64,000 nt of DNA from assembly GCF_002736145.1 (NCBI RefSeq), contig NZ_CP024160.1, forward strand, positions 2,170,001-2,234,000, in the 5' to 3' direction. Position 1 is the first letter of the stretch. Each line of letters begins with the position of its first letter. Positions 4,850-49,097 of this stretch are shown here, in pieces. The DNA is from Collinsella aerofaciens (GTDB taxonomy: Bacteria; Actinomycetota; Coriobacteriia; Coriobacteriales; Coriobacteriaceae). The notes below the pieces were generated by a model. It worked only from the letters and a program-made list of their open reading frames with translations, was not told the origin of the DNA and searched no databases. The position numbers and the translations under genes are program-made.

Positions 4850-4927
4850 TTGAGTTAACCTTTCAGCTAGTTTTTTAGAATTAGATATGTTTTGCGCGCC
4901 ATCTTCGAGTAGAAGGCCGTTGTGCGG

Positions 4928-5035
4928 GCGGTCGGCAGTTAAGTCTGTCGCGAGTTCCGCACGCAAAGGAAAGCACTTAATGTGCTTTCCGTCTTGCGCA
5001 GGACTGTCCGAGCAGCAGACTTAACTGCCGACCGC
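4928..5035 (-). repeat. Structured intergenic element R1 (constant core, 20-base perfect inverted arms)
   Basis: Perfect 20-base arms (4928-4947 and 5016-5035) enclose a core with an inner hairpin around ATTAA. Read on the minus strand the core contains GTCCTGCGCAAGACG and TTTGCGTGCGGAACTC, which recur at 48868-48927 (element R2) with different stems. The element is the 3' region of the dehydrogenase gene at 5050 and precedes the isomerase gene, so it could modulate expression within this operon. Confidence 0.85.
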
Positions 5036-5049
5036 CTCGCCCAGTTTCC

Positions 5050-5859
5050 TTATTGCGGCTGCTTGCCGATGTAAGCCAGAATGCCGCCGTCCACGTACAG
5101 AATGTGCCCGTTGACGAAGTTCGATGCGTCGGAAGCCAGGAACACGGCGGGGCCCTTCAGGTCCTCGGGCGTGCCCCAACGGGCTGCCGGCGTCTTGGCG
5201 ATGATGAACTGGTCAAACGGGTGGCGACTGCCATCGGGCTGCGTCTCGCGCAGCGGCGCGGTCTGCGGGGTAGCGATGTAGCCCGGCCCAATGCCGTTGC
5301 ACTGGATATTGGCCTCGCCAAACTCGGAGCAGATGTTCTTGGTGAGCATCTTGAGTCCGCCCTTGGCGGCGGCATAGCCGGCGATGGTCTCGCGGCCCAG
5401 CTCGCTCATCATGGAGCAGATATTGATGATCTTGCCGTGACCCTTGGAGATCATGCCGGGCAGGCAGGCCTTGGACACGATAAACGGGGCATTGAGGTCG
5501 ATATCGACGACACGGCGGAAGTCCTCGGCACTCATGTCGAGCATCGGCGTGCGCTGGATGACGCCGGCGTTGTTGACCAGGATGTCGGGCGTGGTGCCAA
5601 AATCGGCCTCGATCTTGGCGATGAGCTCGGCGACGACGACCTCGTCGGTGACGTCGGCAACATAGCCGTGAGCATCAAAGCCCAGCTCGCGGTAGTGCTT
5701 CTCGGCCTCGGCGACCTTGTCGGCGTGACGGGCGTTAAAGGCAATCTTGGCGCCTGCCTCTCCGAGCGCCTCGGCAATGGCCATGCCGATGCCATAGGTG
5801 GCGCCGGTCACGAGCGCGACCTTACCGTCCAGGCGGAAGCTGTCCATAAGATCAGACAT
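5050..5859 (-). CDS. dhuD: SDR-family dehydrogenase, DhuD/gluconate 5-dehydrogenase type
   Basis: A 269-residue classical short-chain dehydrogenase. The N-terminal cofactor motif is TGATYGIG, then NNAG, the catalytic Ser region (NICSMMSELG) and YAAAK for the Tyr/Lys pair. The C-terminal half (FDQFIIAKTPAARWG, VNGHILYVDGGILAYIGKQP) closely resembles the streptococcal enzyme first called gluconate 5-dehydrogenase and later placed in hyaluronate/chondroitin fragment catabolism as DhuD. The inferred reaction is NADH-dependent reduction of 3-deoxy-D-glycero-2,5-hexodiulosonate to 2-keto-3-deoxygluconate. ATG at 5859 is preceded by GGAAGGA. First gene of a minus-strand pair with the DhuI-like isomerase. 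The alternative annotation as KduD describes the same chemistry. Confidence 0.88.
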   Translation of the reverse strand: MSDLMDSFRLDGKVALVTGATYGIGMAIAEALGEAGAKIAFNARHADKVAEAEKHYRELGFDAHGYVADVTDEVVVAELIAKIEADFGTTPDILVNNAGVIQRTPMLDMSAEDFRRVVDIDLNAPFIVSKACLPGMISKGHGKIINICSMMSELGRETIAGYAAAKGGLKMLTKNICSEFGEANIQCNGIGPGYIATPQTAPLRETQPDGSRHPFDQFIIAKTPAARWGTPEDLKGPAVFLASDASNFVNGHILYVDGGILAYIGKQPQ

Positions 5860-5964
5860 AGCAATCCTTCCAAAAGAAACGTTCATCTATATAAGTCTTG
5901 CTTTTCGTACAAGCTCAGTATATGTGAAGTAGGGTAATAAACCCTCCCATTCTCCGAAAAATAG

Positions 5965-7037: not shown

Positions 7038-7101
7038 GTTGCGGTGAAATAGGGATTGTTTTGCGGCTTTGGCGGCGTAAGCAGTCCGTATTTCACCGCA
7101 A
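7038..7101. repeat. Palindromic intergenic repeat E2 (GTTGCGGTGAAATA family)
   Basis: Arms 7039-7055 and 7085-7101 pair with one mismatch over 17 bases. Same arm sequence as E1 at 1936-2000 and the lone arm at 6243-6257. It follows the GntR gene directly. Confidence 0.75.
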
Positions 7102-24145: not shown

Positions 24146-24210
24146 AAACCATCACAACATTCGACGTTTTTCGCCAAAATCGGGAAAAGCATCGAATGTT
24201 GTGATGGTTT
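24146..24210 (+). repeat. 65-base palindromic repeat (AAACCATCACAACATTCG family), copy 1
   Basis: Arms AAACCATCACAACATTCGA / TCGAATGTTGTGATGGTTT are perfect. The centre CGTTTTTCGCCAAAATCGGG is shared with copy 2 at 25388-25452 (three differences over 65 bases, two of them at the last bases). Copies 3 and 4 (34525, 45034) are inverted. Confidence 0.92.
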
Positions 24211-25349: not shown

Positions 25350-25387
25350 GGGCGCTTTGGTCCTTATGCGGGGTGCCGTGGGCAGGC

Positions 25388-25452
25388 AAACCATCACAAC
25401 ATTCGACGTTTTTTGCCAAAATCGGGAAAAGCATCGAATGTTGTGATGGTCT
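25388..25452 (+). repeat. 65-base palindromic repeat, copy 2
   Basis: Same orientation as copy 1 at 24146-24210 and nearly identical, so the two bracket the gene at 24312-25349. Confidence 0.92.
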
Positions 25453-25582
25453 GTGCTGAGGATGGGCTTGGGAAGCCGGTCTTGCTCGAAGCGACCTGTC
25501 CTGTCGTACGGGTGTCGGCATGATTCTCTCGTGGGGTATTATGTTTTCCGAAGAATAAAACGCCGCGTGAGGGGAGGGCTGC

Positions 25583-34524: not shown

Positions 34525-34589
34525 AAACCATCACAACATTCGATGAAAATCGCGATTTTGCCGAATAACGTCGAATGTTGTGATGGTTT
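34525..34589 (-). repeat. 65-base palindromic repeat, copy 3 (inverted)
   Basis: Arms identical to copies 1 and 2; the centre matches when reverse-complemented. It directly follows the MFS stop codon. Confidence 0.9.
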
Positions 34590-45633: not shown

Positions 45634-47147
45634 TGGCGCTAAGCTTCGATTCCCTTACCGCCGCCCAGATCGCCGCCGGCGTTGCCGCCGGCGACTTTAC
45701 TGCTACCGAGGTGGCCCAGGCCTCCCTTGCTGCCATCGAGGCGCGCGAGGGCGGGGTCCAGGCATTCCTGCAGGTGGCGCCCGAGCTTGCGCTCGAGGCC
45801 GCCGCGCACGTGGATGCCGACCGTGCCGCAGGCAAGCCGCTGCCCCCGCTCGCGGGCGTGCCGCTGGCCATTAAGGACAACATGAACCTCGTGGGCACGC
45901 GCACCACCTGCGCTTCCCGCATGCTCGGGGACTACCAGAGCGTCTACACCGCCACCTGCGTCCAGCGCATGCTCGACGCCGGCTGTCTGCCCATGGGCAA
46001 GGCCAACATGGACGAGTTTGCCTTTGGCAGCTCTACCGAGAGCTCGGCGTTCCACCGCACCAACAACCCCTGGGATACCGAGCGCGTGCCCGGCGGCTCC
46101 TCGGGCGGCTCCGCTGCCGCCGTCGCCGCGGGCGAGGTCGCGCTCTCGCTGGGCTCGGACACCGGCGGCTCCATTCGCCAGCCGGCGTCGCTGTGCGGCG
46201 TGGTGGGCTTTAAGCCCACGTATGGCGCCGTGAGCCGTTACGGCGTGGTTGCCTTTGGCTCGTCGCTCGACCAGGTGGGTCCCTTTGGCCGCACGGTCGA
46301 GGATGTCGCGCTGGCCATGAACGCGCTTACCGGCGCGGGCCACGATCCGTACGACTGCACCAGCCAGGATTGCGCCGTCGACTTTACCGAGCATCTCAAC
46401 GACAGCATCGAGGGCAAGCGCGTGGGCATCATCCCCGCGTTCATGGAGGCCGAGGGCCTGACGCCCGAGGTCAAGGCCGCTGTTCAGCGCGCCGCCCAGG
46501 AGCTGCAGAACCAAGGCGCCGAGCTGGTCGAGGTCGACCTGCCGCACCTGGATGCCGCCATCGCTGCCTACTACGTCATCGGCCCGGCCGAGGCGTTCTC
46601 CAACCTGGCCCGCTTCGATGGCATTCGCTACGGCTACCAGGAGGAGGGCTGCGCCAACCTGTCCGACCAGAGCTCGCTTTCGCGCGCCCACGGCTTTGGC
46701 GCCGAGGCCAAGCGCCGTCAGATGCTCGGCGCCTATCTGCTGAGCTCGGGCGTGTACGACAAGTACTACTACGCCGCACAAAAGGCCCGCACGCTTATCA
46801 CGCAGGACTACGACGCCGCGTATGCCAAGGTGGACACCATCCTCATGCCCGCCTCGCCGCGCACGGCCTTTAAGTTTGGCGAGATCAGCGACCCCACGCA
46901 GATGTACCTCTCCGACCTGTACACCATTTCGCTCAACATTTGCGGCAACGGCGGTATCTCGGTGCCGCTGGGCCTGGGCGAGGATACGCAACTGCCCGTT
47001 TCTGCCCAGCTGGTTGGTCCGGCCTTTAAGGACCGTCAGCTGCTCACGTTTGCCCGCGCCCTGGAGCGCGGCTTTGCCGATGCCGCCACGGGTGCACCCG
47101 CGCTTTCCGTCGCGCCCGATTTTGCCGGGAAGGGAGGCGAGCTGTAA
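45633..47147 (+). CDS. gatA: Asp/Glu-tRNA(Asn/Gln) amidotransferase subunit A
   Basis: A 504-residue amidase-signature protein that releases ammonia from glutamine. The catalytic Lys is in GVPLAIKDNM, the cis-Ser in GGSSGGSAAA, and the nucleophile Ser in GSDTGGSIRQPAS. One-base overlaps with gatC and gatB (TAATG arrangement) give a translationally coupled gatCAB operon. The complex converts Glu-tRNA(Gln) and/or Asp-tRNA(Asn) to the amide form and implies lack of a direct GlnRS or AsnRS (inference). Confidence 0.97.
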   Translation: MALSFDSLTAAQIAAGVAAGDFTATEVAQASLAAIEAREGGVQAFLQVAPELALEAAAHVDADRAAGKPLPPLAGVPLAIKDNMNLVGTRTTCASRMLGDYQSVYTATCVQRMLDAGCLPMGKANMDEFAFGSSTESSAFHRTNNPWDTERVPGGSSGGSAAAVAAGEVALSLGSDTGGSIRQPASLCGVVGFKPTYGAVSRYGVVAFGSSLDQVGPFGRTVEDVALAMNALTGAGHDPYDCTSQDCAVDFTEHLNDSIEGKRVGIIPAFMEAEGLTPEVKAAVQRAAQELQNQGAELVEVDLPHLDAAIAAYYVIGPAEAFSNLARFDGIRYGYQEEGCANLSDQSSLSRAHGFGAEAKRRQMLGAYLLSSGVYDKYYYAAQKARTLITQDYDAAYAKVDTILMPASPRTAFKFGEISDPTQMYLSDLYTISLNICGNGGISVPLGLGEDTQLPVSAQLVGPAFKDRQLLTFARALERGFADAATGAPALSVAPDFAGKGGEL

Positions 47148-48823
47148 TGAAGGAGCTTTCCGAGGTCCTGCAGGATTGGGAGGCCGTGATCGGCCTGGAG
47201 ATCCATACCGAGCTCACCGCACTCGATACCAAGATGTTCTGCAACTGCAAGCTCAGCCACGATGACGAGCCCAACGCCAACGTGTGCCCGGTGTGCCTGG
47301 GCCTGCCCGGCGCGCTGCCGGTGCCCAACAAGCGCGCCATCGAGAGCATCGTCAAGGCCGGTCTCGCCACCAACTGCGAGATCCAGCGCCACTCGATGTT
47401 CTACCGCAAGCACTACTTCTATCCCGATATGGCCAAGAACTTCCAGACTACGCAGGGTCCGGTCGCCTTTGCCATGTACGGTCACCTGGACCTGGACGTG
47501 ACCGGTCGCGGTGCCGCCGAGCGCCCCGACTGCGCGTTTGGCGAGGCCGAGGCTCAGAGCCTGGCGAGCGCCTCGGCCAACGCCGAGGGCCTGTCCACGT
47601 CCATGACGTCGACCATGCGCGAGGGCAACCAGCGTGCCGGCCACCTGGCCAGCTACGATGCGTCCAACCTGCAGATGCCCGAGCGTCGCGAGGACGGTTC
47701 CTACACGGTGCCCATCCGCATCCTGCGCATCCACATGGAGGAGGACGCCGCCAAGATGGTTCACGTGGGCGGCGCCGAGGGCCGCATTACCGCCGCGGCC
47801 GAGTCGCTTGTCGACTACAACCGCTGCGGTACGCCGCTCATCGAGCTTGTCACCGAGCCCGATCTGCGCACGCCCGAGGAGGCTCGCCTGTTTATGGAGA
47901 AGCTCCGTCGCATCTTTGTGACGCTGGGCATTTCCGATTGCTCCATGGAGAAGGGTTCCATGCGCTGCGACGGCAACGTGTCGCTGCGCCGCCGCGGCGA
48001 GACCAAGCTGGGCACCAAGACCGAGCTCAAGAACCTCAACTCGTTTAAGAGCCTGCATGACGGCCTTGCCTACGAGATCTGCCGCCAGGCCGAGGTGCTC
48101 GAGGAGGGCGGCATCATCTATCAGGAGACCCGCCACTGGGAGCCCAGCCGCAAGCGCACCGTGGTCATGCGTGTGAAGGAAACGGCAGACGACTATCGTC
48201 TGTTCCCCGATCCCGACCTGGCGCCGTTCGACCTGGACGACGAGTTTATCGACCGTTGCCGTGGCGAGATTCCCGAGCTGCCCGATGCCAAGTGCGCCCG
48301 TTTTGAGGCCGACTTTGGCATTAAGGCGGCCGACGCCGAGCAGATCGCTGGCGACCCGGAGTTTGCCGACTTCTTTGAGGCCGCCGCTGCCGGTATGGCC
48401 GGCAAGGAGGCCCAGACGGTTGCAAACCTGCTGGTGAACGAGATGATCGCCTACCTTAAGGGCGCAGGCGTGTCGCTCGCCGAGTCCGGCATCGCGCCGG
48501 CTCAGGTGGCAGCGCTGGCTAAGCTGCTGGCGACCGATGCCATCAGCTCCAACCAGGCGCACGAGGTCTTTGAGGCCATGGCCCAGACCGGCGACGACCC
48601 CAACAAGATCGTTGACGAGCGCGGTATGCGTCAGGTGAGCGATGCCGGCGCGCTGCAGCCGATTGTGGACGAGGTGCTGGCAAACTGTGCCGAGCAGGCG
48701 CAGCAGTATCGTGACGGCAACCAGAAGGTTATCGGCTTTTTGGTGGGCCAGTGCATGAAGGCGAGCCGCGGCAAGGGCAACCCGAAGCTCTTCAACGAGT
48801 TGCTGAGAACGTCGCTCTCGTAA
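47147..48823 (+). CDS. gatB: Asp/Glu-tRNA(Asn/Gln) amidotransferase subunit B
   Basis: 558 residues, somewhat longer than the usual 480. The N-terminal kinase/transferase core has VIGLEIHTEL, CPVCLGLPGALPVPN and KHYFYPDMAKNFQ, with zinc-site cysteines (MFCNCK and CPVC). A helical linker and a C-terminal YqeY-like tRNA-binding tail follow (to FLVGQCMKASRGKGNPKLFNELLR). It phosphorylates and amidates the mischarged tRNA. Last gene of gatCAB; followed by the large hairpin element R2. Confidence 0.96.
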   Translation: MKELSEVLQDWEAVIGLEIHTELTALDTKMFCNCKLSHDDEPNANVCPVCLGLPGALPVPNKRAIESIVKAGLATNCEIQRHSMFYRKHYFYPDMAKNFQTTQGPVAFAMYGHLDLDVTGRGAAERPDCAFGEAEAQSLASASANAEGLSTSMTSTMREGNQRAGHLASYDASNLQMPERREDGSYTVPIRILRIHMEEDAAKMVHVGGAEGRITAAAESLVDYNRCGTPLIELVTEPDLRTPEEARLFMEKLRRIFVTLGISDCSMEKGSMRCDGNVSLRRRGETKLGTKTELKNLNSFKSLHDGLAYEICRQAEVLEEGGIIYQETRHWEPSRKRTVVMRVKETADDYRLFPDPDLAPFDLDDEFIDRCRGEIPELPDAKCARFEADFGIKAADAEQIAGDPEFADFFEAAAAGMAGKEAQTVANLLVNEMIAYLKGAGVSLAESGIAPAQVAALAKLLATDAISSNQAHEVFEAMAQTGDDPNKIVDERGMRQVSDAGALQPIVDEVLANCAEQAQQYRDGNQKVIGFLVGQCMKASRGKGNPKLFNELLRTSLS

Positions 48824-48827
48824 GCGG

Positions 48828-48968
48828 GAACCCGGAAGCCCCGGCAGGGCGGGTGCTTCCTCAAAATTTCGAACAGTCCTGCGCAAGACGAAGGCCACAT
48901 TAAGTGGCCTTCTTTGCGTGCGGAACTCATTTTGAGCAAGCACCCGCCCTGCCGGGGCTCCCGGGTTC
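48828..48968 (+). repeat. Structured intergenic element R2 (constant core, 31-base inverted arms)
   Basis: Arms 48828-48858 and 48938-48968 pair at 30 of 31 positions; CTCAAAAT / ATTTTGAG extends the stem inwards. The core (48868-48927) shares GTCCTGCGCAAGACG, ATTAA and TTTGCGTGCGGAACTC with R1 at 4928-5035, while the inner stem GAAGGCCAC/GTGGCCTTC replaces GGAAAGCAC/GTGCTTTCC. It sits directly behind gatB in the same relative orientation as R1 behind its gene. Confidence 0.88.
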
Positions 48969-49048: not shown

Positions 49049-49097
49049 GAAGGGAACTCATTGAGAGGCAAGGCCCTGCGCCCGGCCCCTCGGTTCC

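Follow-up and report, generated by a model that had tools for sequence, protein, structure and literature searches.

Two hairpin elements, R1 and R2, lie in the window (G000:C1:2170001-2234000, a stretch of 64,000 nt of the 2.3-Mb genome) and raise the question in which form their structure is used. An earlier note on this DNA had described them as nested stems covarying around fixed sequence, and had taken this as a selected structure that is read at gene 3′ ends as RNA or, alternatively, as extruded DNA.

R1 and R2 Contain a Fixed Core and Self-Complementary Arms

The blocks GTCCTGCGCAAGACG, ATTAA and TTTGCGTGCGGAACTC were found in R1 (minus strand) and R2 (plus strand) as claimed, and the inner stems indeed differ and still pair (GGAAAGCAC/GTGCTTTCC in R1, GAAGGCCAC/GTGGCCTTC in R2). 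The outer arms are self-complementary as well, but their lengths had to be corrected: they pair in 21 of 21 positions in R1 (not 20 of 20), and extend over 40 nt with 95% complementarity in R2 (not 30 of 31). All features are listed in Table 1. When folded as single-stranded DNA, either strand of R1 and R2 lies 8.5 to 13 standard deviations below shuffled sequences, and the core 15-mer has 12 exact occurrences in the genome compared to none for the reversed control. Based on these counts and fold scores, the elements are far beyond chance.

Table 1. Positions of R1, R2 and neighbouring features within the window
Feature	Position	Strand	Remarks
Gene upstream of R1: SDR-family dehydrogenase	5050-5886	-	Name read from translation; R1 in sense
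R1	4927-5036	-	Class 1 core; covariance-model score 107.9 bits; between SDR dehydrogenase gene and next gene on the same strand
R1 5′ outer arm	5016-5036	-	21/21 complementary to 4927-4947
R1 5′ core GTCCTGCGCAAGACG	4990-5004	-	
R1 inner stem GGAAAGCAC-ATTAA-GTGCTTTCC	4968-4990	-	
R1 3′ core TTTGCGTGCGGAACTC	4952-4967	-	
R1 3′ outer arm	4927-4947	-	Pairs with 5016-5036
Gene upstream of R2: gatB	47147-48823	+	Name read from translation; R2 in sense
R2	48828-48968	+	Class 1 core; allele A of gatB slot; covariance-model score 93.5 bits; directly 3′ of gatB
R2 5′ outer arm	48828-48867	+	40 nt, 95% complementary to 3′ arm
R2 5′ core GTCCTGCGCAAGACG	48876-48890	+	
R2 inner stem GAAGGCCAC-ATTAA-GTGGCCTTC	48890-48912	+	
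R2 3′ core TTTGCGTGCGGAACTC	48913-48928	+	
R2 3′ outer arm	48929-48968	+	40 nt
3′-half relic of gatB allele B	49053-49097	+	GGAACTC plus allele-B 3′ arm; downstream of terminator-like hairpin

The Elements Belong to a Family Spread over the Coriobacteriia

The earlier note had suggested a search for further copies with a covariance model. Searches for the core gave 31 copies, R1 and R2 included, in this genome of the Collinsella aerofaciens group. With a model built from 52 diverse copies, matches were obtained in at least 152 of 297 genomes sampled from the order, representing at least 41 of 107 genera and six families; the Collinsella genomes G022, G024 and G042 were among those that gave none. 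In the large scans 13 candidates were scored per genome, so that the counts are lower bounds, and the E-values of the model are rough. Among 296 genomes sampled from the phylum, all 16 with a match fall into the class Coriobacteriia, and the single match outside the order but inside this class was weak. A more sensitive scan of 12 genomes from other families gave 6 to 48 copies in each of them. As far as the literature searched goes, this family of hairpin repeats is previously undescribed; a search on palindromes of Coriobacteriia found nothing relevant.

The elements are about 110-150 bp long. Their core is asymmetric, about GCTCRRACAGTCCT ... TGCGGAACTCGC, and is common to copies from Collinsella and from other families; in the latter the core is kept, the inner stem can be short as well as long, and the outer arms, though self-complementary, show no relation to each other. 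The core, like the inner stem, comes in three coupled types, which differ in both core halves at a time: CGCAAGACG goes with CTTTGCG (class 1), CTCACGACG with CTGTTCG (class 2) and CTCGCACG with CGGCTCG (class 3), and the type of the 5′ core was matched to the 3′ type of the same copy in all 223 distinct copies. Of the 31 copies of this genome, 12 belong to class 1, 5 to class 2 and 14 to class 3. Its sole unpaired 3′ core, at position 1550258, belongs to a truncated copy: here (L326, G000:C1:1550258) and in L331 of genome G017, other structured sequence ending in CACGTCCAAAACATCGA stands in for the 5′ half of the element, and the breakpoint is the tip of the inner hairpin.

This genome contains no autonomous version in which the core encloses a gene, nor was a transposase, a recombinase or a binding protein identified for the family. 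A bias towards one replication strand was considered and rejected: with sampled GC skew placing the origin at around 1.75 Mb and the terminus at around 0.65 Mb, the copies are split about 7/8 and 8/8 between the strands.

Stems and Arms Covary around the Core

Covariation around fixed sequence, as proposed from the two copies, holds for the family. Among the 52 diverse copies, double-sided changes keep the pairing in 18 of 22 pairs; 359 cells with such changes were counted, compared to a mean of 122 after shuffling and to 49-115 when the partners were slid. The earlier note had regarded copies without complementary stems as evidence against its view; instead, the arms were matched in 198 of 210 copies from Collinsella and in 61 of 69 copies from other families. 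These data fully support the view that the structure is conserved and that it covaries strongly around a fixed sequence.

The outer arms span roughly 20-55 bp and pair near-perfectly (the median number of Watson-Crick pairs is 34 for Collinsella and 26 for other families), while their sequences are unrelated between copies. They form the base of the stem, the least conserved part of the element. In orthologous slots, 263 distinct paired Watson-Crick changes were counted versus 89 single changes, counts that depend in part on relatedness. C-G/G-C flips, for which there is no wobble intermediate, make up 83 of the 263 paired changes. Part of what looks like compensation may be mutational instead of selected.

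Mispairs and Orientation Do Not Favour an RNA Strand

Selection for an RNA on the strand of the core should lead to G·U pairs far outnumbering A·C pairs. This was not observed. Mispairs in the arms comprise 90 G·T versus 85 A·C in Collinsella and 35 G·T versus 58 A·C in other families, and a split by transcription gave 41 versus 38 for copies in sense to the upstream gene and 39 versus 34 for antisense copies. Mispairs in the inner stems are few and also balanced. With G·T and A·C about equally frequent in the arms, no RNA strand is favoured.

The placement in sense to the upstream gene, which the earlier note had pointed out, is true for R1 and R2 but is not general, since orientation is mixed across copies. 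In this genome 18 of 31 copies, and in other families 19 of 41, are in sense (based on approximate gene calls from a simple coding-score script), resulting in 37 sense versus 35 antisense copies overall. Many copies are intergenic, some of them between convergent genes, and antisense and divergent positions also occur. A T-run follows the stem in 4 of 259 cases. With mixed orientation, no preference for G·U and so few T-runs, reading as RNA at gene 3′ ends was not upheld as a property of the family, and the alternative named in the earlier note, extruded DNA, is the better fit.

When Rfam 15 was searched with R1 up to E = 1, no family was matched, which also sets the element apart from Collinsella-1 RNA (RF01700), a structured motif that shares genus and habitat with it (PMC2864571). 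A likeness of the variant GGTCAGGTCC to SRP RNA was dropped because GGTCAGGTCC is absent from most copies.

Slots Are Kept while Cores and Arms Exchange

The slot downstream of gatB carries an element in every genome of the C. aerofaciens group in which it is readable. Four alleles with unrelated arms occur there, and the arms are matched except in one truncated copy. Arms have been exchanged here two at a time, each 5′ arm together with its matching 3′ arm. Several genomes, among them the present one, also carry just downstream the 3′ half of a further gatB allele; the relic at 49053-49097 matches without a difference the 3′ half of allele B, which is complete in L179, L186 and L190. Four further slots were filled in nearly all related genomes tested, with different core classes and arms. 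Inversion of the core in place was seen at two slots, at that of R1 within the same arms (G033 versus G034; L215 versus L216) and at position 587896 (L004 versus L057 and L067). Recombination has mixed the arms of six copies (L005, L028, L046, L089, L118 and L137), which are mismatched and chimeric and combine a 5′ arm from one allele or neighbour with a 3′ arm from another. Where two copies lie less than 500 bp apart they face each other, in 19 of 19 distinct pairs.

Some copies are interrupted. The gatB copy of G023 (L199, from about position 2040) is broken just after GGAACTCATTTG by an insertion that encodes an IstB-like (IS21-type) ATPase, as read from its translation. L315 (G034, the slot of L043) has kept the 5′ arm; next to it, unrelated genes extend over about 3 kb in place of the core, and the 3′ arm is reduced to its outermost part.

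The C. aerofaciens-group slots examined are stably occupied; neither recent transposition nor target-site duplication was seen, and a clean empty site, as needed to judge a duplication, was absent at the gatB slot and at the four slots tested with joined flanks. In several species the R1 slot holds different intergenic sequence and is not a simple empty site. The gatB locus of G012, with just a short hairpin that resembles the outer part of the arms, is the only candidate for an empty site. This hairpin would fit insertion of the element into a hairpin loop, as a single case in which gain and loss look alike.

Discussion

With some reservation, we lean towards placing R1 and R2 in a class-wide, ancient and non-autonomous family of interspersed, REP-like DNA hairpins, with folded DNA as the working form and a core that is recognised by a putative factor. 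The working form would be a single-strand hairpin or a cruciform, and the asymmetric core would be recognised within the folded DNA by a putative factor of the Coriobacteriia; the core is probably bound by this factor. The presence of these hairpins in Collinsella and in relatives from five or more other families of the order suggests that such a hairpin-recognising factor is common to the Coriobacteriia. In the arms, template switching between the inverted repeats may maintain complementarity and at the same time flip the centre, and the loss of copies unable to fold would add to this, leaving the arms free in sequence but not in pairing. According to one report (PMC8604942), template switching between inverted repeats homogenises the arms and inverts the spacer, and both signs are seen in the hairpin family. 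Template switching is not the whole story, since throughout the class the core is asymmetric and neither of its halves changes without the other; homogenisation is not indiscriminate, and the conserved asymmetric core implies that selection must also act. A more specific version, which we put forward tentatively and hold to be rather doubtful, is that the Coriobacteriia have a dedicated protein which recognises the asymmetric loop of the folded DNA and acts on it, at some 10-50 sites per genome, with arms that contribute pairing only, and with slots that are kept while core type, orientation and arms exchange.

A structured RNA, either a 3′-UTR element or a small RNA with stems selected to pair in the transcript, would explain the strong covariation with fixed internal loops and the very stable RNA folds, and about half of the copies, including R1 and R2, lie in sense after a gene, many of them around 50 nt past the stop codon. 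Considering the random orientation to genes (37 sense versus 35 antisense), the lack of an excess of G·U over A·C in the arms and the missing Rfam match, we nevertheless regard such an RNA as unlikely. Many copies are located between genes, convergent ones included, as would be expected for transcription terminators or insulators. The T-run directly after the stem that characterises intrinsic terminators is found for only 4 of 259 stems, however, antisense and divergent placements exist, and at gatB separate terminator-like hairpins are present beyond the element, making this function extremely improbable. Compensation could also be purely mutational, with template switching making the arms identical and the structure itself unselected. 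Strand-neutral homogenisation of arms together with in-place inversion of the spacer is exactly the signature known for this process (PMC8604942), but homogenising alone would erase both the mismatched asymmetric core, which is kept class-wide, and the coupling of its types, which co-change in 223 of 223 copies. Copy number is, moreover, maintained in at least 41 genera, and we consider a purely mutational origin quite unlikely.

Mobilisation as a REP-type element by a Y1 (RAYT) transposase deserves attention, as 37 of 43 Collinsella genomes have Y1 transposases of RAYT-like length. Like REPs, BIMEs and REPINs, the repeats are interspersed, extragenic, palindromic and multicopy, form inverted close pairs and are targets of insertion sequences. 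According to one account, REPs are short palindromes of 20-40 bp with a conserved tetranucleotide tag at their end (PMC3733652), whereas the elements of the hairpin family are much longer (about 110-150 bp), have arms that differ wholly between copies, and conserve an asymmetric inner core instead of a short tagged palindrome. A short tagged palindrome, a RAYT gene flanked by copies in this genome and a regular co-occurrence with Y1 genes were not found. This genome has two Y1 (RAYT-like) transposase genes (G000:C1:760130 and 881179), and no copy lies within the 4.5-kb regions around them; G016, with at least 17 copies, and G014, which also has copies, contain no Y1 gene over the cut-off. We therefore consider mobilisation by a Y1 transposase very improbable.

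Other known systems share single properties with the folded-DNA hairpins that we favour. In attC sites structure is conserved above sequence, and asymmetric bases remain unpaired in the folded DNA hairpin; the R boxes, which are conserved, sit at the hairpin base, and the variable part is at its tip. The hairpin family likewise conserves structure over sequence and has asymmetric unpaired bases, but its layout is not that of the R boxes, as its base, the outer arms, is variable and the conserved loop is inside; unlike for integron attC sites, no gene cassette arrays were seen with it. Dispersed hairpins also occur as double-hairpin elements of mitochondrial genomes, where they are regarded as mobile or selfish palindromic repeats. 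The genomes are different ones, and we know of no core like that of the Coriobacteriia hairpin in these elements. Terminal inverted repeats common to the copies, as in MITEs, were not found, the outer arms being unrelated. By the tests run, the family is a kind of interspersed palindromic repeat and not a member of REP/RAYT, attC or Rfam.

Strong covariation is normally taken as good evidence for a selected RNA. The hairpin family is a natural case of strong covariation without any sign of an RNA strand, and this matters for the interpretation of covariation in genome scans. Among its many orthologous loci are ones with matched or mismatched arms as well as inverted and chimeric ones, and these also offer a view on the homogenisation of inverted repeats in bacteria.

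Other repeats were noticed nearby. A separate inverted repeat, AAACCATCACAACATTCGA...TCGAATGTTGTGATGGTTT, is present in three copies in the window (24146-24210, 25387-25453 and 34525-34589); these are possibly operators or another repeat family. The inverted repeat TTGCGGTGAAATA...TATTTCACCGCAA at 7039-7101 may be a regulatory operator, since similar sequence is found in other species (L210, L211, L219) upstream of the gene that follows the R1 slot. In G007 and G008 (L210, L213) the R1 slot is occupied by a different nested palindrome with the centre GTCGGTCGCGTACCCAAGTACGC. The palindrome centred on GTCGGTCGCGTACCCAAGTACGC is also present elsewhere (L054, 7693-7715) and possibly represents a second hairpin family.
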